DNA from: Owenia fusiformis
Lineage: Eukaryota; Annelida; Polychaeta; Sabellida; Oweniidae
Length of the DNA: 64,000 nt
Assembly (NCBI GenBank): GCA_903813345.2
Contig: CAIIXF020000003.1
Coordinates: 24,195,248 to 24,259,247, forward strand
Reading direction: 5' to 3'
Shown here in pieces: positions 6,947 to 57,199 of this stretch. The translations under genes were made by a program, and so were the position numbers. The notes beneath the pieces are model-generated. The model saw only the letters and a list, made by a program, of their open reading frames with translations, searched no databases and had not been told where the DNA came from. The stretch's first letter is position 1; each line of letters begins with the position of its first letter.

Positions 6947-8692
6947 TACCTTGATCAAATGTTAGGGAGGTTAAGCTACACGTTTTAAAAACTTATATAG
7001 TAATATGTGAACATTTAATATTCACGTATATTACCGTCTACCATTCAATTGATTTTTCGAGGGACTTTATTACAAGTATTTTCCATATACGTGTATACTC
7101 AATCGGCCAAGTAAATACTTCGAAGGGGAAGACTACATGTAGTTCTTCGAGTCCCCAGAGGACCATAATTCTTCACGTTCATGTACACGTTTTAAAAAAC
7201 ATATAGCTTAGCCTCCCTATCGACTAGGCAACCCAATGTTGTTGTTTTTTAGACAAACATTGATAATTAACACCTACTGGTTATGGTATCTAATGAGTTA
7301 TTATATTATTCATATTTGATAAACAGACTTTACCAGATTGAAAAATAAAAACATAAAATATAACATATCAAACATCATAAGTCTAATTTAGTATAATGTG
7401 TCTTTAGTATAATGTGTAACTTAATAAGTTTGAATCTGTGTTGTCTATGTTGTCATGGAAACTTTCCTGGAAACTCACACTGGGACAGTTTGATAATGAT
7501 AACTGCCATCATTTTTGGACAATATCAACATCATAAGTACTTTTGTGATAAAACTCAAATAACATAATTGTTTTATAAACTCTGACAAAATAATGAAGAA
7601 TTGACACCAATGGAAACCTTAAAATCAAAGGGCATTTTAAAAATTGACTTTTGAGCACAACTTGTTCTCCTCCTAAAAGGCATAGAGTGCCTGATTTATT
7701 TATTGGTCATTTATTGAGCATCACTCAAAAAGCAGCTAAATAAAATATTATAGCTCAAAAATATAATTAAAAACAAAATTGGATGATAGAATACATCATG
7801 AAACAGTGATACCATTTTAAGTAAAAAATAAAAAATAGGTTGGGATATTTCACTGAAAAGGCTCCAGTTAAAACATCTAAACCATATACATTTTACAAAA
7901 TGTAAGCGTATAGCCTTGCCTAATATTGTATTGCATATGTTATTTTTGAAATAAAAAATGAAAGTAAAAAAGCTTCAAAGAGGAAATGAACTTATAGATG
8001 GACAGGAAGATTATCTAATCACTATTATACTTTGTGATATCAGTTTACATACTTTAAAAATAACACAAATAAGTATATGAACTCTGTCATTCCACTAACT
8101 GGCATAATCATGGCACAATGTTATGGCACTATGTAAACTGAACTAAAAGAGTTTTCCAGAATAACTTATTGTATAGACATGTACTCGCTATACAAGGATG
8201 CCATCTTTTAAAGGAATCCAATACTAGATTCATTGAAAAATATATGCACCCTCATTTTTTGCACAGTACTTATTGCACAGTAGATAATAACCATAGATGA
8301 AATAAGAATCTTTTGCTTTAAAACAATGATATCTACCCACATTCAGGACTTTTCCTTTATACTGTAATTCTATTTAATTTGGCAGGACTTATTTTGGAGG
8401 ATTCCCTGTTTTGAACATTTGGCAGCTACTTAATTTGGCAGACTTGCAATATTAAAATGTACTGACTATACATATTTATGATTGAAATATGATATTTCAA
8501 TTTGAAGGCGACTTACATGTAATTTGGCGGATTTTAACGTTCTAAAGCTTAAGACTAAAGCTTCAGGAACATGAGTGTTTCACTTTGTAAAAGAGATAAC
8601 CCCAAGATATAAGTTCCCCTTTTAGTTGTAACTTATATGTTGGAGTGTCCTATTCTTTACAATCATTGCCCATTCCAATTCATAAAAAGAAA
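6947..8692. other. AT-rich intergenic DNA, nothing firm
   Basis: No gene-like frame. The words aatttggcag/aatttggcgg recur around 8380-8530, which may be a degraded repeat. Confidence 0.5.
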
Positions 8693-10208
8693 CTATCGCA
8701 TTACTGTAATGTTACTATTGTAGTTCTAGTGTCCAAAATTTCCTGGAATGCTTTTAATATTGACTTATCGAATTACTGTAATGTTACTATTGTAGTTCTA
8801 GTGTCCAAAATTTCCTGGAATGCTTTTAATATTGACTTATCGAATTACTGTAATGTTACTATTGTAGTTCTAGTGTCCAAAATTTCCTGGAATGCTTTTA
8901 ATATTGACTTATCGAATTACTGTAATGTTACTATTGTAGTTCTAGTGTCCAAAATTTCCTGGAATGCTTTTAATATTGACTTATCGAATTACTGTAATGT
9001 TACTATTGTAGTTCTAGTGTCCAAAATTTCCTGGAATGCTTTTAATATTGACTTATCGCATTACTGTAATGTTACTATTGTAGTTCTAGTGTCCAAAATT
9101 TCCTGGAATGCTTTTAATATTGACTTATCGCATTACTGTAATGTTACTATTGTAGTTCTAGTGTCCAAAATTTCCTGGAATGCTTTTAATATTGACTTAT
9201 CGCATTACTGTAATGTTACTATTGTAGTTCTAGTGTCCAAAATTTCCTGGAATGCTTTTAATATTGACTTATCGCATTACTGTAATGTTACTATTGTAGT
9301 TCTAGTGTCCAAAATTTCCTGGAATGCTTTTAATATTGACTTATCGCATTACTGTAATGTTACTATTGTAGTTCTAGTGTCCAAAATTTCCTGGAATGCT
9401 TTTAATATTGACTTATCGAATTACTGTAATGTTACTATTGTAGTTCTAGTGTCCAAAATTTCCTGGAATGCTTTTAATATTGACTTATCGCATTACTGTA
9501 ATGTTACTATTGTAGTTCTAGTGTCCAAAATTTCCTGGAATGCTTTTAATATTGACTTATCGCATTACTGTAATGTTACTATTGTAGTTCTAGTGTCCAA
9601 AATTTCCTGGAATGCTTTTAATATTGACTTATCGAATTACTGTAATGTTACTATTGTAGTTCTAGTGTCCAAAATTTCCTGGAATGCTTTTAATATTGAC
9701 TTATCGCATTACTGTAATGTTACTATTGTAGTTCTAGTGTCCAAAATTTCCTGGAATGCTTTTAATATTGACTTATCGCATTACTGTAATGTTACTATTG
9801 TAGTTCTAGTGTCCAAAATTTCCTGGAATGCTTTTAATATTGACTTATCGAATTACTGTAATGTTACTATTGTAGTTCTAGTGTCCAAAATTTCCTGGAA
9901 TGCTTTTAATATTGACTTATCGCATTACTGTAATGTTACTATTGTAGTTCTAGTGTCCAAAATTTCCTGGAATGCTTTTAATATTGACTTATCGCATTAC
10001 TGTAATGTTACTATTGTAGTTCTAGTGTCCAAAATTTCCTGGAATGCTTTTAATATTGACTTATCGAATTACTGTAATGTTACTATTGTAGTTCTAGTGT
10101 CCAAAATTTCCTGGAATGCTTTTAATATTGACTTATCGCATTACTGTAATGTTACTATTGTAGTTCTAGTGTCCAAAATTTCCTGGAATGCTTTTAATAG
10201 TGACTTAT
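8693..10208. repeat. 72-bp minisatellite, 21 near-identical copies
   Basis: Twenty-one head-to-tail 72-bp units that appear identical except at one site, which is c or a (cgcattac versus cgaattac), at 8699+72n. The state by copy is c,a,a,a,a,c,c,c,c,c,a,c,c,a,c,c,a,c,c,a,c. From copy 11 on, the pattern a-c-c repeats, so a 216-bp trimer was amplified after the 72-bp unit. Because 72 is a multiple of three, a long plus-strand frame stays open through it; that frame is not taken as a gene. The array ends 50 bp beyond the APRT stop codon. On the APRT strand every unit contains ATTAAA. Confidence 0.95.
10193..10198 (-). terminator. Candidate APRT poly(A) signal (ATTAAA)
   Basis: Reverse complement of tttaat, 60 bases past the APRT stop. 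It is the common variant hexamer, and it lies in the array copy nearest the gene, whose edge (aatagtg) differs from the other copies. Further ATTAAA hexamers follow every 72 bases in the minisatellite. Confidence 0.45.
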
Positions 10209-32701: not shown

Positions 32702-33616
32702 TCAACCATTGCAAGGCTTCCTGATTTGACGCCTTCTAAATCCACCCCTAGTATTTCCCATCTTAATGCTAAAATCTAGTTTTCAGCTTGATGGGCCTTT
32801 ATGCAGATCGGAAGGTATCACACAAAATATATTCCCTAACCTGGTAAATAAAATATTCTTACCTCATTAAACAGATCTCTGAATTAAACAAAACCTCTCC
32901 TAATTCAGAGAATGAGCCTGTACAAATCTATCCTTCAATATTCTTGGTTCGCACTGCTGCACTCTGAAAATTTGTTTCTTAACACAGGTAGAACCTTTAG
33001 ATCTCCTGCTACAGCTTACCGATTGTTCTTTGTGTTGAAGAGCATTCCTCATAGTTGCTACAACCATACAACTAAAAACTAATTTACACTTGATGAAAAA
33101 TTGAGTTAAAATGATAAAGAACATATCTCATTTTTTGCATACTGATTTTAGATGCTTTTTAGATTGATTTGAATTTGGTTTTAGTATTTTATAAAAGTTC
33201 TCACATTTTCTTACGAGAGAAGAAATCAAATGTTGCGTGTTAAATTTTGTAAGGGAGATATGGCAAAAACAAATGTGTTTACAACAAATATAACCCAGAA
33301 GCCCATGTAATATATGAGTTAGGGGGTGTTTGTGAGGCTCAATGTTCCTAAGAATTTGCCAGTAGTCAATTAACCTGTCTGAATCAATCAATGGTTTTGT
33401 GTCAGTGGATTTGTTTGTATGAGCTTGGTTTGCATTTTATTGATCTATAAAATTTTTAGTAGGTCAATATTTTTGTGACCTCATTTTAGGTTTTAGGTAT
33501 ATAATCAGGGTCAGTTGCAAGGAAATAACAGGTGATTAACCGTTGTGTATGTATGTGAATGATGTTTATTCTTGGGAATATAAAATGTTTTAACAACAAA
33601 TAGGGTTGACATTTAA
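32702..33616. other. Intergenic DNA, two unconvincing minus-strand frames
   Basis: Frames of 74 and 87 codons at 32900-33124 and 33128-33391 show no domain or splice sites of note. Confidence 0.45.
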
Positions 33617-33998
33617 AGAGAGAATCAGATCTAGCGAGCATGCAGCCTAACAAAAAATTGTTTCAATTTTAGAAAATTTCTGGCTTATGTCATTCATTGT
33701 CATGTCTATTTTCTATTTTCTTTTTTTAAAGTGCACACTTTATTTGAGAAAAACGTAAGATTTTTACAATAATGTATCTTTTTTTTTTCTATTAGAATGG
33801 TTACCATTCTTATTATTTGGGAGAATTTAAACATTTTTCAGACATTTTTTCACTTTGAATCCATAATAACTTCACCAATTTATAACATATCATGAATCTT
33901 TTGGGAGATATTGTATTTGAGATTGTAAGGAATAGATTGGTAGGTCAATTGTACATGTTGCTTGTAATTTTGTCACCCCCATAGATCTGATTCTGCCT
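33617..33998 (+). mobile_element. TTAA-type MITE, copy 1
   Basis: Ends agagagaatcagatcta and tagatctgattctgcct are flanked by TTAA (33613-33616) and CTAA (33999-34002). Shares its whole length with copies at 45888 and 56835. TTAA targets fit piggyBac or Kolobok; the ends do not look like piggyBac CCCT, so Kolobok-like is the better guess. Confidence 0.8.
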
Positions 33999-38444: not shown

Positions 38445-41400
38445 ATGTGGAAGATGAAGTGGATATTCATTGCGCTAATGGGATTCCTCCCCCTGAGCCT
38501 GGCTCAAGATGTACCCCCAAAAGAACCGGAGATAGAAGTGACGCCAGCAACGTAAGTGCAACTATTTTTTCCATTTTTGTCAATTATGGTTACGCTTGTA
38601 GGCATCAGCTTCAGGTCCAATATCGCCTCACCTCGCCTAATCTGGAGAGGGAGAGGGGGTATTGGGGCAAAGCTCCCATCCTGAGATGCCCAAGGGATCA
38701 AATGGCACTCCAGTATTTTGCAAAAAAATAGTATTTATGTATTTCTAATGCATAAATTTTGGCATGCCTAATTAATTAATTTATTACAAAAATGACGTGT
38801 TTCTGAAATCAAAAAATAAATTATTGAAAGGGGCCCACTACCCTAAAGATATCCAGATTCTGCCAAAAGAGCCTATGCTATTGTTTGAATAAAATATGAA
38901 TGGGCAAGAAATGGATGACACGTTTGGTAGCACAGACTTCTATTTTAATATCCCAGATGCGAGTAGAAATAATCTTGATTTACGTCATTAAAAATTCACA
39001 ATTCAGTCAAACTGATGTCATATTTGGAATCTACATGTAAAATTACATTTAGAAATGTGGTTTTGAAAAGAGTTTATCAACTTAGAAAATTTAATTTTCT
39101 GTGAAAATGTGACTTCTAGGTCGGGGAGATTCCCCATAGAGCCCATGTTGTAAAACTACAAAAAGTGAAATATCTTTTCTTGTGTTGGGCAGATAATATT
39201 TTCCTTTACTGGACATATTTTAATTGGTATAACTACTAGATACATAAAAGTAATATGAAAAGTGAACCATTAAAACTGATACATATTCAAGTTTAAGGGA
39301 ATTTTGTAATACCCTGCCATGTTAATTCCCCCGAATCAGCCACCTGGTGGCGAAACTGGTAACTACCTACTCGCATCTGAGTAATTAGAGGGAGTGTTTT
39401 GTATGGTAGAGAATAAGACAGTCATGTATGTGCAGTACACTTGCATATTAAAGGCATGTTTAAGATTAAACAGTGCAACTCGACAGGATATTCTCAAATC
39501 GGTGCATTATACACTGACGATACGTCTGTGTAACTAATTTATTCTTTTCTATTTTTTTCTCACATGGTGCAAATGGGGTTTCAGGTGGAAGTTTGCTTAC
39601 TTTCACAATCTCAGGCACATACAGCACCTACTCAGTTTAATTCAATGCTTTATAAAATCATATTTGAAGGTTAAGTTCATTTTACTTCAGCATGCATCTC
39701 AAATGATCTCTCATTAAGTATTTCTTATATTTGTATTCACATTTAAATCAAGTGATGTTTATTCTGAAAAAGTAATTTATTAAAAATTATTAAAAAAATT
39801 TCTCAGTTTTATTAAGGTATCTGGTATCATTTGACATAATTCATTGATATATGGTACTCCAGGGCGTTCAATAAGTAAGGGTTACTTTGCTTTGAAACAT
39901 TTATTTATATTGGATGTCAATTTTGAATGCTGTTTAAACACATATGAGATTTTTAGACACAAATGTTATTTTAAGATGATCTACTTGATGCAGAAAAGTT
40001 TGTCCCATTAACAGTTACTTAAAGTAAATTTTTAAAGTGGAAAAATGTGAACAAGCAAACAAACAAACAAACAATCAAACAAACAAATAAAATTGTGCTT
40101 TGTTATTATACCCACTACCAACAGTTATTTGAAAAAATCCTACCTCTTAAAAGTATTAATTTTCGAACTTTTCAATATGTTGTAATGATGTGTGACTTAT
40201 TAGTTCAAATAAGAAAAAGTCATGTGATCTTTAGAATACAAGGTACAAGGTAAATTGTCTCATTGACCATTCAAAGATAACATAATAAAGATAATTGTCT
40301 CATTGACCATTCAAAGATAACATAATAAAGATAATTGTCTCATTGACCATTCAAAGATAACATAAAGATAATTGTCTCATTGACCATTCAAAGATAACAT
40401 AAAGATAATTGTCTCATTGACCATTCAAAGATAGCATAAAGATAATTGTCTCATTGACCATTCAAAGATAACATAAAGATAATTGTCTCATTGACCATTC
40501 AAAGATAACATAAAGATAATTGTCTCATTGACCATTCAAAGATAACATAAAGATAATTGTCTCATTGACCATTCAAAGATAGCATAAAGATAATTGTCTC
40601 ATTGACCATTCAAAGATAACATAAAGATAATTGTCTCATTGACCATTCAAAGATAACATAAAGATAATTGTCTCATTGACCATTCAAAGATAACATAAAG
40701 ATAATTGTCTCATAATATAACATTTTCCTGATTTAATCATTTTTTAAAAGTCATTTTTTATAAAGAGGACTTTCTTGAATATCACTACAGGGTGTATGCT
40801 AATTTTTAAAGTGGCAGCAAGGCATAGAATAAAATATTGAAAGCAATAATATCCATAAACATGCCAATGTCATTTTGCTCCTTATGATCTCTTAAATAAA
40901 AGAAATAATTTAAGATTCATAGCTATATTAATTCAACAACATTAAAAAAGAAAATCCCAGAATAAATCAACTAACATACTACAGTAAAACCTCTCAGATA
41001 GAATACTGCTCTTGTACCTTGGTCACATTTGCTCGGATTTATCGGCTGGCACCTTGCCGATTGAGAATTTTGTTCAAAATTGTACAGGTTTAACTGTATC
41101 TTCTTTATATACCTAATGGCAGAAACAATCATGTACATCATGCCTAGGATAAATTTGACATGAAACATGTCTCTTATTACTTGTATTATAGCTATGTTAT
41201 AGATAGATAATCACATTTGATTCTTGAGTCGTGCCTGGTTTGTAACCAAGTATTATCGCAATATGTAAATCGGGAGGGAATAAAAGTCATAGCCATTTAG
41301 ATTTGAGCTTTTAGTTTAGATGGTGACCTGTTGCAATCGGTTATTTTTCCACCTGTCTGTTCATCCGTTTGTCTGTCTGTGCATATTTCCTTTCTGGCTT

Positions 41401-44400
41401 ACCTATGATGTTAGTCAGGGGTATTTTCTTTTTATAGTTTATCAATGCAGAGACGCATGTGTAGTATTTATACTTTTTTCAAACATATCACCATCTAAGC
41501 CAAGTACCTATATACTACCCTTCTTACTCTTTTTTCATTGAAATGAAAAACATGATACTGTTATATGATATTATTTTTAATGTTCTAATCTTAGATGGAA
41601 TAGCAATAAGAATTGATGCAATATGAGTAATGCCTTAGAACCATATCATTTGGTAATCATATCACATTTTGTACAATCATTTTTATGTTTTTCCTTTAGA
41701 TATATGGTTACATCTCCAAAAGTGTTGAGACGCGGCACAGATCTTGAGATTGGAGTAACCATTCTCGCTGAAAGTGGACCAGTGCAAGTTACAGCAACAC
41801 TTACAAAAGGAAAGGTGACATATACGTCAGGCTCTGCAACCATTGGTAAGAAAACTGATGAATATTATAAAAGATTTTGCATAAAAGTAGGATTTGCATT
41901 CATAGGAAGTATAAAATATTGTACATTAATACAAAATTAATCAATGAACATTATTAAACTTCAAATAGATAACCATCAAATTATCAAAAATTAATTAAAT
42001 ATAATTTGTTAACATTGTTGACAAGTTCATTTGCATTTAAATGTTCATTTGTATATCTCTAGAATACTCATGATCTGAATTAAACCAAACCTCTATGAAC
42101 ACAATTTGTTAAATTTTTGAATGGCTCCATTGATCTCCCCAGCATTAAAGCAAGTGGGCACAGCACCCACCTGAGATTTTAAAAACAGGCATGCACCCAC
42201 CTGAAAATCCATTTGCACACACTTGAACATGAGAAAAATCATGGAGAATTGGCATATTTTGACCAATTTTGGTCTGATTTATCAAAATGAGAATTTTGCA
42301 CCCACTTGAAAAAATATCCTGAGGAGAACACTTGGCTCTGCATCTGATTTATGTCAACATTTCAGCTTGTGACAAGACATACACCCACCAGGGTGTCATT
42401 ATCACTGATATGTATATATGTTTATATGATTTTAATAAATAAATAAAACAATATATTCATGGCCAATTCAAAATTGAATAAACTACAGCTACTTATGATT
42501 TATCTGTTGCATAAACAAGAAATATGTAACACACTCTTATATCATTTGAATTTACTTTCAGAGAACTCTGCTGTTGTTTCAATACCTGTAAGTAATTTAA
42601 ATCATCATTCTATTAATACTTGTTTGGAGATTATCAGTATCAAAATTGGAATAATTGCATTGTCTGCCTTGCCATAATTCTAATTTTGATTTTTGTTAAA
42701 TTTTTACAACCTTTTTATTCCATGAAGTATGTAAAGCATAGTTTATATTCATTTTTTTAGCAAGGAGATTTTACCCAGCAGGGATAATATTATCACATAT
42801 ATATTGAACTTACGAACACCCATAAGCCCATAACCAGGGTCTAAACTGGGCCTAAGGGAGGGGGAGGGATTGCCCCTCATGTCGAAAATTCTTTCAAATT
42901 TGTGCAGTTTTTCACCATTCTGAGCATTTTTCATTTGGTTTTGCGCCTTAATTGTAAAACTTGAACCCCCTTGGAATATTTAGGAAAAGTGAACCCCCTT
43001 GGCAAAAGCTGGCTATCATTTATGATTTTACTTTCTAGGTTCCTACCAGTGCTGATGAAGGAGCCTATACTTTGACAGTAACTGGTTCAGGAGGTTTAAC
43101 CTTTACTGACTCCGCAACCTTGACCCTTGACCCCCATAGTGTCTCAGTTTTCATACAAACTGACAAGGCCATCTATAAACCTGAGCAGCTTGGTGAGTTC
43201 TGTGTTCTTTATTATTTTATTTCTAAGTTTTTATTAGCTCGCAATTATCACATTATTTGCAAAATAAGTTCAATCAACAGAATGGTTTATAATTAGAGCC
43301 TTACCAAAGGCTAATATGAAATGAAAAAAATCAACAAAATAATGTAACTTTAATTTCTAAGTTAACTACATACATCCATTAGTGTGACAAAAAAATCCAT
43401 TTCACTTAATAATAAAGAACAAAATAACTTATCTGTCACGTTTTTTTTTCTGTATACCCTGATTCTAACAGTGGTCTATAGATCTGTCACTATCATCATG
43501 TCTTATTACTATAGTTACAATTTATATGATGTTTCAGGTATATGTTATAAATGAATGATCGCATTTCAGACAGCTACTTTTATAACACATCAGATTTTAG
43601 ACTTGAGTGAAAGTGTATATGATATCACCATATAAAATGGCATACTATCACATGGCTGTGTTCTTACTAACAGTTGTTTTAACAATTATTTAGAAACAAA
43701 ATGCAACCCACCTAATATTGAGAAATTTCGATTTTGATTTTTCAGTCCAGTTTCGAGTTATGCCTGTAAAGCCAGACCTTACTCCCCTTGGACTACCTGT
43801 GGATATACACATCACGGTAACATTTATTTTAAACACAGATACCATATTCTCTGTAAGTAGCGCCCGGGGCATTTAGAAAATTCAAACTATCTCCTTTAAA
43901 TTTAGACCATTCTAATGTATGGCAAAGAATGTCTAGAAATTCCTTGTTTGCAACATCAGAATTAAGCAACAGCATATTTTACATACAATAATGAAATATG
44001 GAATATGGATTTGTTATTGGGTTGGATAATAAGGATTATAAGGATCAAATTACGATCAGAGTTAATGATTGAGAAGCAATGACAGAAATATCTAAAGTTA
44101 TTTTAACAGAATTACTAATTAATATTTAAAGCGACTGATTAAAATATTCAACATTTTAATTTTCTCTCAAATTATCATCTGTTCACAAATGAATTTTCAC
44201 CATGATGCAGAGTAATTTCAAATATTTTAAACTTGATGACAAATTTTTATGTATTGGAGCTAATTTAATGAGATTTCACATTTTCAATATTTTCTTATAT
44301 AAATCATGAAGAATGAAATGTTTTACTTAAGGGTTTTGCATTCATTTTTAGGATAAGAATGATAACAAAATAAAACAATGGTTGAATCAGACATCAGATA

Positions 44401-47400
44401 CAGGGATCATCTCAAAATCCCTACAACTTTCGGACCAACCTCCATTGGGAGACTGGAAGATAACAGTGAAGGTTTTGGTATGTACCCTAATATTCAGTTC
44501 ATGAGATGAGGGGGAATTCAGCCTAGTTTACTAGTTTTTTGGTTTGTATCCATGAAAACGTAAGAGTCAGTATGGAATATGATTTGAATAATATTGACAA
44601 TATTATATAAGCAAATATTAGGTATAAGTATGATATTAAAGTTCTGAATTCTGTTTATCATTGTATTTAAAAATGTTAAAATTATGAAAATGTTTGAATT
44701 TAGAATTTTTTGAATGATCAAATGTTGTCTGTCTTGTTTGGTTCCCATGCTATCAAGTATATGTACAGTGTGTTTATTCACTGTAATTATAGTGTAATAA
44801 TTATTGACTTTGATGTTTACCTTTTAGGATGAGAAAACAGAGAAGGTGTTCACAGTGGAGGAATTTGGTAAATATGCATCCATCTACTGTATATAGGGAG
44901 GTTAAGTTAGCATTGTTTTGAAAAACATGAACATATAAAATATACTTTTCCCCTTTGTGGTCTTTACCACCCTAATAATGTCTGGAGATTGTATGTACTT
45001 TATGATTGAAAAGGGAAATATTGACTCTGCCTGGGGTCATGATATTACAAGTTCAGATTTTTTTCAAATAAATGTTGTATAATAACGATCTCTCTACATG
45101 TATTATCATAAGTGTGTTCTAATTCAGAAATTTGAAAATAGATGGAATATTGCATCTCTGTCACATGGTTAATAATCAGTTTAGTACATGTTCTTCAAAA
45201 GCAGTGGTGTTACATGTATATCTTTGATTTTTTTTCCATTTTAGTGTTACCCAAGTTTGAGGTGAAAATCAATCCCAGCAAACCATATGTATTAAATGGT
45301 GGAAATGAGGATGACACAGCCATTTCAGGAAACATTGAAGCATTGTAAGTGTAAAAAAGTTAATTTATAAATGTACTAAAATTTTGGATTGTATCGTCCC
45401 AAAAACTTCACTTTCTTCAAAGATTCAATGTACACTAGCAAAATGTCATGAACTTTCAGCCCTTTCCCAAATGTAATAGATAACTTAAGTCAAAATTCAT
45501 TAAACATTGATATTGTCCCTTAAGAACTAACCATATGAGGTCTTAATCGATGTTATCTAATTTTGAATTTGTTGCACTTTTCCAAATTAGCATTTCAAGC
45601 ATCATGGACACATATAAAATTGACAGTCTAAAAAAACATTGCATCAATATTATTATGAGGACATTATGGATCATGTTGAGTTCCTATATTGATATGATCA
45701 AAAAGGACACATTGATTCGAAAATCATGGATGTTCAGATTGCAATTTTGTCACTCTTTAAACCTCTGATTCTAGCATAGAAAGCACAGAGAAAGAAATGG
45801 AAAACATAAATACATAAATGTACACATAAATAATCAGAAAAACAGATGTCTAATTAACTGATGTACACATAATGTCTTTATATTTAAAGGCAGAATCAGA
45901 TCTATGGGGGTGACAAAATAACAAGCAACTTGTACAATTGACCTACCATTATATTCCTTACAATATCAAATACAATATCTTCCAAGAGATTCGCAATATG
46001 TTATAAATTGGTGAAGTTATTAATGATTCAAAGTGCAAAAATGGCTGAAATTCTCCCAAATAATAAGAATGGTAACCATTCTTATAGAAAAATATTACAT
46101 TATTGTAAAAAACGTTAGTTTTCCTTGAATAAAGTATGCACTTTTGTAACTTTTAGAAAATAGACATGACAAGTAATGACATGAGCCAAAAATATTCTAA
46201 AATTGAGACAATTTTTTGTTTAGCCTGCTCGCTATATCTGATTCCCTCTTTTAGGTATACCTATGGAAAGAATGTGAAAGGCAAAGTATCTCTGCAGGTG
46301 TACTTAAAAAATAACAGGAATAAAGTGACAAAAACCTATAAGGTAAAATACCTTAATTTACTTTATGTTCATACCATGTTTTATAGTCATATAATACTGA
46401 TTGTGTTGTAGGCTTAGTCATGTCGGCATATCACTGGAATTTGATATCACCATGGGCTTTCTAGTTGAAAGCCCATGATATCACAAATTGTAGATAACTC
46501 AACCAATTCCACATCCTAGTGCTATGCATGAGAAAATTCTGCGCATAAGTTCTGCATGAAAAAGTCAAATTCTGCACCATATTCGGCATGAAATCCTGAA
46601 TTCCACGATAAATTTTGAAAGCAACATTTCATTTGAACTATCACAAAATTGTGGAGAATTCAAATTTCGTGACATATTAGATGTAATCTTTAAGTGCTAA
46701 AGGCAGAAGTTTGAGCATTCTAAACATATTTCACATTTAACCTTACAACACCGGCTTCTGATGACCAATGACTGTCTAAGGTGTCAAGGTGAGTGACAAG
46801 TATGAGATGTCAGGTGGTTGATTTGAAAAATCAAATATTTTGCGAAATTCCGTGCAATTTTTTTTTATGGAAATTCTATTATTGTTTTATTGAAATTACA
46901 TAATATATACTATAACATGTCTATTGTATAAGGAGGAATGCCCTCCTTATATATTTCTTTTATTGACAAACGTGTCAAAGCATGACACATTACTCTATGT
47001 ACAAAATAAGAAACTAATCTAACTAAAAACTAACTATAAACTATGAGAATACATGGATAAAATTTACTCTGAAATAAAACTACACATAGGAAGGACTCCA
47101 ATTGTCAATTGTAAGTTCTTGGTTAAAGTCTAGATGCACATATTTATATTTCATTTTTTATTTAGATTGACGGTAAAGTGGCGTTTTCTGTTCCAATTGC
47201 TGATCTGAAGAGAGTATCTAGAGAGAATACTATTCACTATTTTGACATTGTATGCATAGCAGAGGTTACAGAAGATTTGACAAACATTAAGCTGTCTTCA
47301 GAAGAATTGACAATACCAATACATCAATATGGGATCAAGCTAAAATTTATGGAAGCATCTGCTGATAATCTTAGACCTGGATTGTCCTATACAGCATATG

Positions 47401-49460
47401 TAAGTGCAGTATAACATATAAAGGTGGAACACCTTGATAAGTGTTCTGCTAACCACCGACTTAATGTAAATTTAACCTCTGTAAGTTGAGCACCTAGATA
47501 AGTGTTCTGCTAACCATCAACTTAATGTAAATTTAACCTCTGTAAGTTGAACACCTTGATAAGTGTTCTGCTAACCACCAACTTAATGTAAATTTAACCT
47601 CTGTAAGTTGAACACCTTGATAAGTGTTCTGCTAACCACCGACTTAATGTAAATTTAACCTCTGTAAGTTGAGCACCTAGATAAGTGTTCTGCTAACCAT
47701 CAACTTAATGTAAATTTAACCTCTGTAAGTTGAACACCTTGATAAGTGTTCTGCTAACCACAGACTTAATGATAATTTAACCTCTGTAAGTTGAACAGCT
47801 CCCAAGTGGAACGTTCAGTTACACAGGTCTTGCTGTGTACAAGGTATTTAAATTTATATTATCAAATTACCATTGTGAATAGTATCATGACATTGAAAAC
47901 GTCTACTACAACCCAGAAAACCATACAAATAAAAACCAAAAACTCCACCAAGTGGAATATTTTTTTAAAATAGTGTATATTTCCTCCATGCTTTTAATGT
48001 TATATCTAAATATACTAAAATATCAGTAGAATAGACAAACCATTACTGCCATCTTTCAACTGTTTTGATAACTTTATCGATCAGAGATTTGAATATTGAA
48101 ATAACAGTATCTTAGTGCCTTATGATATAAACTATAAATTACATGTACTTATATACACCCAGTAAATGTAAAAGAAAATTTCAGTACCTCCCTCTGTACA
48201 ACTCCTATGGAAGTCAAACATCTATATAAGTTCAGAAATTCAAATTGTTTTCAAGTATGAGAACAATAGTCATCATAATTACATCAAATATCCTACAATA
48301 CCATTCAGTCAGCCAGATATACTCAAAGCACTTTACTTGGTGTAATTTAAAGCATTAACCAGGTGAACATCCTCACATCATTTTTGTTAGGTGAAAGCAT
48401 CCAAGCCTGATGGGTCACCCCTTGATGCAGGTCATGGAAAGAGCATCAAATTTTCTGCAACAACAAATTACGAAAATGATGGGTATGGGTAGCAGCTTTT
48501 TACATTACTATGAAGAAACAAGCCGAAAAACACACTGCACCTCTCGGGATTTACTTGTGTTCTCTTGTCACAAAGCTAATGACAAATATTTATTCAATTT
48601 ATTGGATATCATAAATAACAGTCAACCTTTTGATCATTTTGAATTCTGATATTTGAAGGACATTATTGGAGAATCAACAAAATATTGTAAAATAAATCAG
48701 AGGGGGGCTTCAAATAATTACAAAGGCCAATTTGACCCTATGAAAAACTTGGGCACTCACCAAAAAGTTGATACTAAATTTTTCATTTGCTCTATTTATA
48801 GTACTGGTAAATATAAAGAATCCACGACTGTTGACAGCACACATGTCATTCCTGATGCTGGTGTTGTAGTCGTGCCCACTACAGATATCGCCATGGATAT
48901 TAGCTCAATGCGTTTGGAGGTATGTACACTCATCCAAGGTATAGCTCATAGGAATGGCAGACTAGGCTAAATCATCCTCCGATCACAGGGCTTCAAAATC
49001 CAGAATATATTCTTTCTTTTTACCCCCTGTGATAAGCAGTTACCATTTCCCCGATTAGGAACTCGCAATCTGATTGGCTGTCGCAACACTGTGACAGAAA
49101 TTGTGTATAAGTCATTGCGCATAATTAGATCACATGATTCAGTTAAATCGGGCACTTCCAAATTAGTTATAGCAGGGGGGAAGAAGGAGGTACGGATTCT
49201 GGACACCTGCTTAGGAGGATGAGGCCAAATACTCCACATACAAATGAAGTGATATTCAAATTAGCATTGTCACAGATTTGAGAATAAAGTTGATTTAACA
49301 TCATATTGTGTAAATAATTTTAAGTTAATAAATTTTTGCTTAGGCAACACTGGTGTCAAACCGCAACATCCGAGCAGATTCGAAAACTGTTTCGAAATTT
49401 TCGACAAAGACAAATGCAGGGGTCCAGATCAGCTTATTGACGGCACTGGAAAATATGAAG
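38445..49460 (+). CDS. Thioester-containing protein/CD109-like (alpha-2-macroglobulin family), 5' part, 13 exons
   Basis: Exons: 38445-38551, 41700-41845, 42562-42587, 43039-43192, 43746-43816, 44352-44477, 44828-44867, 45245-45344, 46255-46342, 47166-47399, 48391-48482, 48802-48919, 49344-49460. All are GT-AG and join in phase to 473 codons without a stop. Residues 1-21 are a signal peptide (MKWIFIALMGFLPLSLA, then QD). MG1 is about 36-125. MG2 starts with the family hallmark FIQTDKAIYKPEQ (about 131-143). VLPKFEVKI opens MG3 and YTYGKNVKG matches CD109 YTYGKPVKG. MG4 and the start of MG5 follow. The protein is secreted or surface-bound and complement-like. Family members run to about 1400-1500 residues, so the bait region, the GCGEQ thioester and the C-terminal domains lie beyond 49460 and were not found in this window. 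The last donor (gtatgt) is intact. Confidence 0.93.
40251..40712. repeat. 37-bp tandem repeat in TEP intron 1, ~12 copies
   Basis: Unit: ataattgtctcattgacc plus attcaaagataacataaag. The first two copies have an extra taa (40 bp). A few copies differ at one base (atagcat). Near-identity suggests recent expansion. Confidence 0.92.
40982..41096. mobile_element. pogo-like MITE, short form, in TEP intron 1
   Basis: Ends cagtaaaacct and aggtttaactg, flanked by TA on each side. The 115-bp body differs from the longer family members. TA duplication and CAGTAAAACC ends fit pogo/Tigger. Confidence 0.7.
42130..42331. mobile_element. CACC-type MITE, copy 2, in TEP intron 2
   Basis: Begins tgatctccccagcattaaag and ends ctgaggagaacac, with the shared interior of copy 1. 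Confidence 0.75.
42826..43012 (-). mobile_element. hAT-like MITE, degraded copy 3, in TEP intron 3
   Basis: Read on the minus strand: atagccagcttttgccaagg, gggttcac, gggttcaag, cagaatggtgaaaaactgca. This is the order of the copies at 18655 and 20075. Ends and G runs are eroded. It stops about 25 bp before the exon 4 acceptor. Confidence 0.65.
45888..46250 (-). mobile_element. TTAA-type MITE, copy 2, abutting the TEP exon 9 acceptor
   Basis: Inverted relative to copies 1 and 3. Left flank TTAA (45884-45887); right flank TTAG (46251-46254), where a second TTAA would be expected. That AG is the splice acceptor of exon 9 (starts 46255). The element's last bases (tctgattccctctt) form the pyrimidine tract. 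The copy is full length by comparison with the other two. Confidence 0.85.
46451..46477. repeat. Short hairpin, catgggctttc family, copy 4
   Basis: Arms catgggctttc and gaaagcccatg extend outward to tgatatca on both sides, with one mismatch. In TEP intron 9. Confidence 0.7.
46880..47000 (-). mobile_element. LINE 3'-tail fragment
   Basis: Minus strand: a hairpin ggagggcattcctcc followed by an A/T-rich tail with ttcaataaaacaataata. Resembles the hairpin-plus-tail layout at 1.6 kb and 51.65 kb. No coding part remains. Confidence 0.35.
47407..47835. repeat. 61-bp tandem repeat, six copies, inside a pogo-like MITE
   Basis: Unit gataagtgttctgctaacca plus cc.acttaatgtaaatttaacc plus tctgtaagttga.cacct. 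The right border (gttcagttacacaggtct, then tgctg) is the right end of the pogo-like family. The left border (cagtataacatat..aggtggaacacc) resembles its left end. The array begins 7 bases after the exon 10 donor boundary (47399|47400). Confidence 0.75.
48968..49236. mobile_element. MITE in TEP intron 12
   Basis: Inverted ends about 80 bp long, roughly 70% alike: atcatcctcc..caggg..ccagaat and attctgg.cacctgcttaggaggatgag. Inner blocks taccccctgtgataa and tatagcaggggggaag also pair. The minus-strand frame over it has no recognisable product. Confidence 0.5.
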
Positions 49461-54304: not shown

Positions 54305-55561
54305 TTAAACTTGTGTGTCTGTGGTTTGAGGTGTCGAGAACCTATACATAGAGCTCCCTCTACTATGTATCGCACGGTAGGTTTCCTGACACTGTGATGT
54401 GAACAACTCCCTCATTGTTTTACGGAATGGTATATTTATAATATAATAAAGTATGAAGTTAATTGTGAAATTCACGCTTTGAAGAAAGTTTGTGACAGCT
54501 TCCGCGATCTGGAACTCCATCTTTCTGTCACCATTTCTTGTTTTCAATATCTCATCCACAAATTTTAAGATCTCTGCTGGTGTGACTAGGATCAGAAACA
54601 CGGCTACTATCGCGATGAATGTCGGTGTTAGCTTACATCCAGCATTCGAACAACTTTGATTTGCACTCGTACTTTCACTCAGCATTCGTCGCATTCTGCT
54701 CGACTGATGTAGCGCGCGTATTAGACAGATGTTGCTGATTAAAAGTAGGATAAATGGAATGATTCCACCTAAAAAGCTCCACAATAGGAGGTATGCAGTA
54801 TACCCATCCAATTTCACGATATCGCCAGGCCATGGTGAGTATACCTTCAAACCTCCTGAGCAAGAAAATTCTCGAATTTTCATTGTCCAAAAGCGTGGTA
54901 GTGTGAATAAAACGCAACTTACTGTAACAACTGAGACAGAGATTTTGACTCCCTGTAGACTAGATACCCCTCTAGCATAAAGTGGGTAGCATACTGCGAT
55001 ACATCTTGCAAGTGCCATCGTTACTGTCAACCATGTGCTCATCAAGATGAAAGTATTAACAATGCCAGTATGGAATACTTTGTAGTATAACATGAAATGT
55101 TTTGTTTCGGATAAGACTGGCTGTCCAGCCTGGGAATTCATGAATCCCAAAGGGAATGCAGAAATGCAAAACATCATATCAGAAACTGCCAAAGCGATTA
55201 GTCCAAAATGGGCAGATTTTTCAAGTTCATCTAAATTACTTTTCATTCTTTTCCTTGTTAGTATGATTAGATTCAATATGTTTCCCAAGAATCCAAAAAC
55301 AAGAACAATGGGTAGCATATAGCCAATCACCCGATTTACAATTTGATATGTTTCTTTTGAATTTCCTGACCTAATTAGAGATGCAGTTAAAACTTCCGTA
55401 ATACTGTCAGTTGTTGTGGTAGCAAACGTGCTGTTATAACTCCTCATTGTTGTGAAGGAAGTATTGCTCAATGTTTCTACACCACCAAGGGATAATTCCC
55501 CATATACTTTGAAACATGCATGCATCTGCAATGTCATCATGATCCGTTCTGTTCTGTTCAT
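54305..55561 (-). CDS. Rhodopsin-class (class A) GPCR, peptide-receptor-like, intronless
   Basis: 418 residues in one exon. The extracellular N terminus has N-glycosylation sites (NRT, NTS, NST). TM1 has GFLGNILNLIIL (the GN of the family), TM2 LIALAVSDMMFC (the conserved D), TM3 FILMSTWLTVTMALARC followed by IAVCYPLYAR. TM4, TM5 (P in GGIIPF), TM6 (FLILVTPAEIL) and TM7 (SVNFTINFILYYIINIPFRK) complete the seven. Overall style is that of invertebrate FMRFamide/peptide-type receptors; the ligand cannot be read. Oddities: the DRY motif is ARC, NPxxY is NFILY, and no cysteine precedes TM3 although the second loop has one. The start is the first Met; a second lies at residue 8. Lies antisense, inside the presumed TEP intron 13. 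Confidence 0.92.
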   Translation of the reverse strand: MNRTERIMMTLQMHACFKVYGELSLGGVETLSNTSFTTMRSYNSTFATTTTDSITEVLTASLIRSGNSKETYQIVNRVIGYMLPIVLVFGFLGNILNLIILTRKRMKSNLDELEKSAHFGLIALAVSDMMFCISAFPLGFMNSQAGQPVLSETKHFMLYYKVFHTGIVNTFILMSTWLTVTMALARCIAVCYPLYARGVSSLQGVKISVSVVTVSCVLFTLPRFWTMKIREFSCSGGLKVYSPWPGDIVKLDGYTAYLLLWSFLGGIIPFILLLISNICLIRALHQSSRMRRMLSESTSANQSCSNAGCKLTPTFIAIVAVFLILVTPAEILKFVDEILKTRNGDRKMEFQIAEAVTNFLQSVNFTINFILYYIINIPFRKTMRELFTSQCQETYRAIHSRGSSMYRFSTPQTTDTQV

Positions 55562-56526
55562 CTCTTGGAATGTTTAAGTTTCTGTTCTCAACACCTCTTA
55601 TACTCCTGTCCTTAATGTCTCAATGTTTTATCATGTACTGGTATATTAAAACTGTAAGGTGTAGTTCTTTTATAGTCCTTGACATGTCCATACTTATGTT
55701 TTTCATCTGTCATGTTCAATTTTTTTTACTGTTTGTATGGGTTATATTTGCATTTATGTGATTGTTCTATTTTCCAGTCTGCTCTAACTGTTGATGTCCT
55801 TATTTTGTTACATGCCAGCTTGTCACTAGCCAGCAACTGTCATTGTGACTTTAATTTAGATATGTCTCTTCAGTTTTAATCAGTCGGATAGCCCGTATAT
55901 TCTGCAAGTATAAAAAGCATACAATTTGGATTATATTTGCATGTTCAATGGCTATTTATTCAAATAGAGCCTTATAGTTATACCTGTATTAGTTTGCAAT
56001 AAATAAATGCTTTCAGTAAATGAATTTATGTTCAATACTTGTTTATGAATGACAACTACTATTGCATGTAAGTTTTGATGCTTCTAGCCTTTTGCCACTT
56101 TTCTGATTGCACATGGCTTTTATACATTTACTCTTTTTGAATATATATGAATGCTCTTATTGAGATCAAATTTATATTCAGAATATATTCATAAAAATTG
56201 TTGTTGACTTTGTTAATGGATGGACAAGTATGTACAAAATGATGCACACAAATTGTTGAAATAATTCCTTGCATCCACAATACCTTTTGGTGTTTTTCAT
56301 TCGAAAAAGTTGTTTTCATTGCATCATGTTATATATAATAACTATTGTTAAGTTTTTAATTGCTCTATTTGAATATTGAAGTTCATGCACAAAGAAACAA
56401 TTTGCATAAAGAATGTTTATTTCAAAAATGTACACTTGATTGAATCAACTTTATACATTAAACCATAGGTCCATACTTGATAACATTCACTGTCACACTA
56501 TACTTCATTCATAATTAAGATGTGTA
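55562..56526. other. GPCR upstream DNA, nothing firm
   Basis: Should contain the receptor promoter. No clear TATA or initiator was recognised. Confidence 0.4.
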
Positions 56527-56667: not shown

Positions 56668-56834
56668 TTATATCGAGAATATTGCTGTTAATCACACCCT
56701 CTAAGGTAACCCCACTCAAGGAGTAACAAAAGATTCAGAATTAAAAAAGGTATCCCAAATCAATACACTCCTAGAATATTGTTCTGTATCTTTGAAGTCA
56801 CCAAATTTACACAATCAAGTTCAAAGCTTCTTAA

Positions 56835-57199
56835 AGAGAGAATCAGATCTAGGAGCAAGCTAAACAAAGAATTTTTTCAATTTTTACATATTTTTGGCTC
56901 ATATCATCCCTTGTCAGGTCTATTTTCTAAAATCCCCAAAGTGTTACTTTCCGGGAAAAGTAAAGATTTTTACAATAACGTAAATTTTTTATATTTTTAT
57001 GGTTACCATTTTTATTATTTGGGATTATTTAAACATTATCCCCACTTTTGCACTTTAAATCCTTAATGACATCATTTATAACATATCATTGATCGTTTGA
57101 GAGAAATTTATCAAGAAGAAGATTGGTATTCCAATTATACATGTTGCTTGCAATCTTTGTCACCCCCTATGTATAATGTATGTAGATCTTATTCTGTCT
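56835..57199 (+). mobile_element. TTAA-type MITE, copy 3, with intact TTAA on both sides
   Basis: TTAA at 56831-56834 and 57200-57203. Ends agagagaatcagatcta and agatcttattctgtct. Same body as copies 1 and 2 (gttaccattnttattatttggga, caccccc.at). This copy fixes the target site of the family. Confidence 0.85.

Follow-up and report, generated by a model that had tools for sequence, protein, structure and literature searches.

A TTAA-targeting MITE has probably inserted into a pre-existing 3' splice site of a thioester-protein (TEP) gene, leaving a hybrid acceptor that consists of a transposon pyrimidine tract and the host AG. The insertion lies at the end of intron 8, within the 64,000-nucleotide stretch of DNA that was analysed (the window), and positions refer to the window unless a contig is named. 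A, B and C are three paralogues of the gene. A slash marks a splice junction. The features of the junction are as follows.

45245-45344, forward strand: TEP exon 8 (68% protein identity to exon 8 of A and B), with donor GTAAGT at 45345
45345-46254, forward strand: intron 8, phase 2, at a position common to A and B
45884-45887, forward strand: left target-site copy, TTAA (register from 39 other copies)
45888-46249, forward strand: MITE copy of 362 bp, from a TTAA-target family with Kolobok-like ends
46208-46223, forward strand: cryptic acceptor within the MITE (acaattttttgtttag, cut after its last base), 31 nt upstream of 46254 (matrix score 8.32 versus 4.66)
46237-46249, forward strand: element end, with a branch-point-like CTGAT (A at 46241) and a pyrimidine tract
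46250-46253, forward strand: right target-site copy, now TTTA and most likely TTAA at insertion (register and change count; TTAAG in 2/3 paralogues)
46254, forward strand: host G, which supplies the second base of the acceptor AG and is not part of the target duplication (register; present in 3/3 paralogues)
46255-46342, forward strand: TEP exon 9 (YTYGKNVKGKVSLQVYLKNNRNKVTKTYK), 69% identical to A and B and 50% to C

Family and register of the MITE copy

The element is a member of a repeat family far beyond chance. Forty matches were scored in its own genome, itself included (2745 first-look candidates), and the nearest other copy matched with E 4.0e-154. The 39 other copies were lined up with their flanks; these are the copies most similar to the one in intron 8 and not a random sample. 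Target copies read TTAA on both sides in 33/39, in keeping with the TTAA-type MITE named in the first-pass annotation. Three copies (L030, L032 and L045) retain TTAA on both sides with the junction shifted by one base, and in three (L016, L033 and L034) TTAA is seen on the right only, the left flank having changed. The left end of L045 is one base shorter and its right end one base longer, yet neither TTAA is disturbed, which resembles a junction moved by one position.

The right end of the family is GATTCYCTCT, followed by TTAA. In this register the right junction of the intron 8 copy reads CTCT, then TTTA, then G. Because the register is fixed from other copies, G46254 is host DNA outside the duplication. 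The last base of the element is 46249 and not 46250, as had been annotated; the MITE does adjoin exon 9, as claimed, but it does not end exactly where the exon begins, the two being five bases apart (end at 46249, exon start at 46255). A duplication of three bases (TTA), which would make the G ordinary flanking sequence, was considered and rejected, because the copies show a 4-bp TTAA.

The ends were compared with those of Kolobok-type (T2-like) MITEs. The TTAA target-site duplication is present, and the terminal bases are RR (here AG), with AGGCAGAATC on the left and, in reverse complement, AGAGGGAATC on the right (AGAGAGAATC in most copies). The motif AGGRR of T2-MITEs is absent (AGGCA left and AGAGG right in the intron 8 copy, AGAGA in most copies), so the element is described as Kolobok-like and is not filed as a T2-MITE. 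PiggyBac-type elements likewise target TTAA.

The intron 8 copy differs from the majority of the 39 others at 19/362 sites (5.25%), the most among the 40, and eight differences are private to it (one of them a gap); since the 39 were chosen by their similarity to this copy, its divergence provides no date. The relatives reported near 33617 and 56835 exist within the window (33616-33998, 83.6%; 56834-57167, 74%), and both are inverted. Two further matches to CTCTTTTAG are L094 and L095.

Paralogue junctions and the empty site

A search of the genome with the translated exons 8-10 located the three paralogues on the same contig, at ~15.684 Mb (A), ~15.790 Mb (B) and ~15.743 Mb (C). Exons 8 and 9, with the intervening intron, are common to A and B; in the stretch of C that was compared, exons 9 and 10 alone were found. 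The bases before exon 9 are TTAATTAAG/GTATAC in A (TTAAG), TTAATTTAG/GTATAC in B (TTTAG) and GTATTTAAG/GTATAC in C (TTAAG). AG/GTATAC is found in 3/3, and A and C (2/3) have an intact TTAA exactly at the position that a target would require. The A/T difference at -3 also distinguishes A from B.

The element was not matched in the compared intron 8 sequence of A, nor in ~1 kb upstream of exon 9 in C. Intron 8 of B holds a MITE-like remnant (L057, reverse complement ~714-998), an older relative of the same family. It was considered as the same insertion and rejected, being 72-77% identical, with a match that stops ~500 bases before exon 9. By eye, the remnant sits in a ~1-kb block absent from A, while the stretch from this block to exon 9 is common to A and B. 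It seems to be a separate insertion of greater age. Because three paralogues with no MITE at this place carry AG/GTATAC, the acceptor AG is older than the insertion.

The fewest changes needed to reach the present junction were counted for four starting points: one for a TTAA target followed by the host G, one for a TTTA target followed by the host G, two for a TTAG target, and two if an A-to-G change in a TTAA duplication made the acceptor. The last two had been offered in the first pass, where TTAA on the left was set against TTAG on the right. The final four intron bases are indeed literally TTAG, with TTAA as the left copy, but the comparison is one base out of register, the right copy being the TTTA at 46250-46253. 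Neither the A-to-G change nor the TTAG target with its left copy altered now appears credible, since two changes are required either way, the G lies outside the duplication in the register of the 39 copies, and AG/GTATAC is already present at three MITE-free paralogue junctions. Unless the register is set from other copies, reading such a junction as TTAA on one side and TTAG on the other can be misleading.

The same insertion into a TTTA target, with an acceptor TTTAG like that of paralogue B and a left copy that later became TTAA, is equally cheap, as the same single change suffices, and B supplies an example of TTTAG. It is nevertheless rather unlikely. None of the 39 copies has TTTA on both sides. 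In the fixed register the right-hand copy of L045 does come out as TTTA, but that junction has slipped by one base and its TTAA is intact. Since TTAA is so general in the family, TTAAG/GTATAC is the best empty site, and a single A-to-T change at -3 most likely followed.

In the history that starts from TTAAG/GTATAC, a Kolobok-like, TTAA-targeting MITE would have entered a ready-made TTAA within an existing 3' splice site (tctttatatTTAAG/GTATAC). After duplication, TTAA would have stood at both ends of the element, the right-hand copy being followed by the host G. Neither the host AG nor the exon would have been broken, while the host pyrimidine tract would have been displaced 366 bases upstream. 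The outward-reading terminal repeat of the element (CTGATTCYCTCT), which is pyrimidine-rich, would have substituted for the displaced tract. At the right copy TTAAG would later have become TTTAG, a change expected to strengthen position -3.

Acceptor strength and condition of the gene

All intron sequence from 45888 to before the last five bases is element. The pyrimidine tract before exon 9 (tctgattccctct) is element sequence, as first annotated, and TCTGATTCCCTCT is the element's terminal repeat; the tract of the host, gtctttatat, is now found 366 bases farther upstream. Pyrimidines fill 13/16 positions from -20 to -5 at 46254, compared with 10-14 in nine other acceptors of the gene (exons 8 and 13 taken one base off). 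Over the final 70 nt a YTNAY motif occurs once, as CTGAT, whose A is 14 nt away from the exon. A branch point at this distance is nearer than usual.

A rough acceptor matrix was made from 14 acceptors of the gene and its paralogues, exon 9 sites excluded. Site 46254 scored 4.66, lower than every training site (7.69-17.04, n = 14) and just above the 95th percentile of a background of 1515 AGs (4.33; 99th percentile, 8.43). The matrix penalises C, because it was built from 14 T-rich sites. Exon 9 acceptors of the paralogues scored 4.87 (A), 9.91 (B) and 2.33 (C); 46254 is a weak acceptor whose score nonetheless falls inside the span of the paralogues. Before the A-to-T change (TTAAG) the same site would score 0.56, and the joined empty site 5.63.

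Among the AGs scanned around intron 8, 46254 ranks fifth. Three that outscore it are in the element (46223, 8.32; 46156, 7.39; 45893, 5.22) and one is in host sequence (45774, 5.39). The AG at the position of 46223 is retained in 38/39 other copies, with TTTAG in 34/39. Splicing at 46223 would read GNIEAFLLAISDSLF and then a stop (eleventh codon), and splicing at 46156 would also give an in-frame stop. Because 46223 is a plausible competing acceptor, exclusive use of 46254 is not to be assumed, and some transcripts probably carry a premature stop owing to 46223. The dependence of splicing on transposon sequence that had been proposed is borne out as far as the tract is the transposon's; the dependence itself holds if 46254 is used. 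The acceptor-like ACAATTTTTTGTTTAG (46208-46223) could also act as a cryptic acceptor in sense-oriented intronic copies of the family.

The joined exon 8/exon 9 reading continues the protein across 46254 (GNIEAL/YTYGK), with exon 9 in frame from 46255 as the first-pass annotation had it. A 307-aa joined exon translation matched Pfam MG2 (E 1.7e-20) and MG3 (E 7.2e-14), of which MG3 covers exon 8 and the following exons. MG2 and MG3 in the N-terminal half place the gene in the thioester/alpha-2-macroglobulin family. The exon 9 peptide alone matched MG3 with E 2.5e-4 and 21.7 bits, slightly below the curated cut-off of 23.1.

Exons 8-10 have an open reading and are conserved. Over 140 codons, dN was 0.187 and dS 1.376 against B (dN/dS ~0.14), and 0.196 and 1.632 against A; dS exceeds 1, near saturation, and could not be computed for exon 9 alone. 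Because the paralogues are this old, most of the selection on these exons predates the insertion.

The TEP exons in the window extend over ~38445-49460 from a signal-peptide-like start, and match B as far as the exon at ~49345-49460 with 68-73% identity. Family searches of the genome gave no BRD, A2M or TED match in the window, and comparison with 9.9 kb of B found no such exons in the window and the next 8 kb. TED had 17 genome matches, 0 in the window. The nearest on the same strand, C3:24735017-24738233, contains GCGEQ and lies ~0.49 Mb downstream of the last matched window exon; same-strand BRD and A2M matches are at C3:24708603 and 24732862. The nearest same-strand exons of these three domains begin ~464 kb downstream. 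Two clear downstream TED pieces are 84% and 69% identical to those of B, and a third is 63% identical with a non-coding edge included, a level close to that of the window exons. A protein search of the genome found no second set of exons 8-10 near the downstream BRD/TED exons. It is likely from these matches that the C-terminal exons of the TEP gene lie ~464 kb away, in one gene with a ~464-kb intron, in a gene split by rearrangement, or through a scaffolding error.

The genome MG2 family search returned 0 matches from 6 candidates and missed even the TEP gene of the window, presumably as the domain is divided among exons. No second allele came up when the left part of intron 8 was used as query; the 5 matches were to the window, to exon 8 of A and B, and to two short stretches located elsewhere. 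Window positions 48952-49260 and L096, from the region downstream in paralogue B (reverse complement ~8576-8970), are ~91% identical in six-frame peptides, more than the gene's own similarity, and this stretch is probably a separate repeat. Downstream of the TEP exons, an open frame of 422 aa (54305-55573, minus strand) resembles a seven-helix receptor by eye.

The insertion may instead have broken the acceptor, so that RNA mainly uses 46223 or 46156 within the MITE, with a premature stop, or skips exon 9, in a defective allele or a decaying gene. Both element sites outscore 46254 and lead to in-frame stops, and no BRD, A2M or TED exons were found in the window. Exons 8-10, on the other hand, are still open and conserved, the matrix that ranks these sites penalises C, and the exon 9 acceptors of A and C score no better. 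A broken acceptor is possible but unlikely, and a host AG served by the element's tract is preferred here.

Chance, further copies and known systems

TTAA occurs 653 times in the 64-kb window, or about five million times per 498 Mb if the window is typical. By a rough estimate, which assumes a few thousand TTAAG acceptors and treats all 2745 first-look candidates as copies, about one or two chance insertions into TTAAG acceptors would be expected without selection. That this MITE landed on an acceptor does not clearly exceed what chance would give, and since chance alone suffices, an adaptive reading is not needed.

Further cases were sought among the TTAAGG copies, at the right end only. There were 69 places matching CTGATTCYCTCTTTAAGG, and 150 bases of each right flank were translated in three frames (207 translations). 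Thirty amino acids were reached in 29/207 frames; Pfam was run on 19 of these, the other 10 being identical or near-identical to those run. No second exon-adjoining copy was found in this screen (Pfam 0/19 frames), which has low power for short exons. The exon 9 peptide, as positive control, matched MG3. A codon score was dropped because it did not separate coding from non-coding sequence (the true frame of exon 9, extended into the intron, scored -3.67). The matches to CTGATTCTCTCTTTAAGG in L068, L069, L070, L076, L082, L083, L086, L090 and L103 have one identical or near-identical translated right flank. Because nine matches share it, that CTGATTCTCTCTTTAAGG end either lies inside another repeat or belongs to one.

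More speculatively, the family ends could be portable half-acceptors, the terminal repeat giving a branch-like CTGAT and a tract and TTAA giving the A of AG wherever G follows. Insertion into TTAAG would then be nearly splice-neutral, so that the family could invade introns up to the exon edge, and the inner cryptic acceptor would produce alternative exons that contain a stop and are unproductive, tuning the host gene, in this case an immune TEP. This extension is held to be improbable.

The case is neat and clean but fairly ordinary. It is a well-resolved example of a DNA transposon inside a splice signal without obvious destruction, in which a TTAA target can form part of an acceptor (TTAAG) and a pyrimidine-rich element end replaces the displaced sequence. 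It yields a clear-cut prediction for RNA (46255 versus 46224), together with a simple rule for locating more cases. In the open literature searched (titles and abstract openings), no description was found of this junction or of a TTAA MITE splitting a conserved acceptor.

Three known systems are close to this case. In Alu and L1 exonization (PMC3629564, PMC2639721, PMC2176070), the element supplies a pyrimidine tract or an acceptor, and elements carry cryptic sites. At TEP exon 9, element sequence likewise provides the tract (located within the element, as in other TE-derived acceptors) together with a cryptic site. Unlike in exonization, there is no new exon; an old, conserved coding exon retains its own AG and gains a new tract. 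The Kolobok superfamily and its T2-MITEs are characterised, according to PMC6004289, by a TTAA target, RR termini and the motif AGGRR; the intron 8 copy shares the target and the termini (AG) and differs in the absence of AGGRR. Introners, according to PMC9860276, are non-autonomous, some with TIRs, and draw all or part of their splice sites from the target duplication or from the neighbouring exon. The MITE resembles them as a non-autonomous element whose splice site comes partly from a target duplication. Introners create new introns, whereas TEP intron 8 is old, with the same position and phase in A and B.
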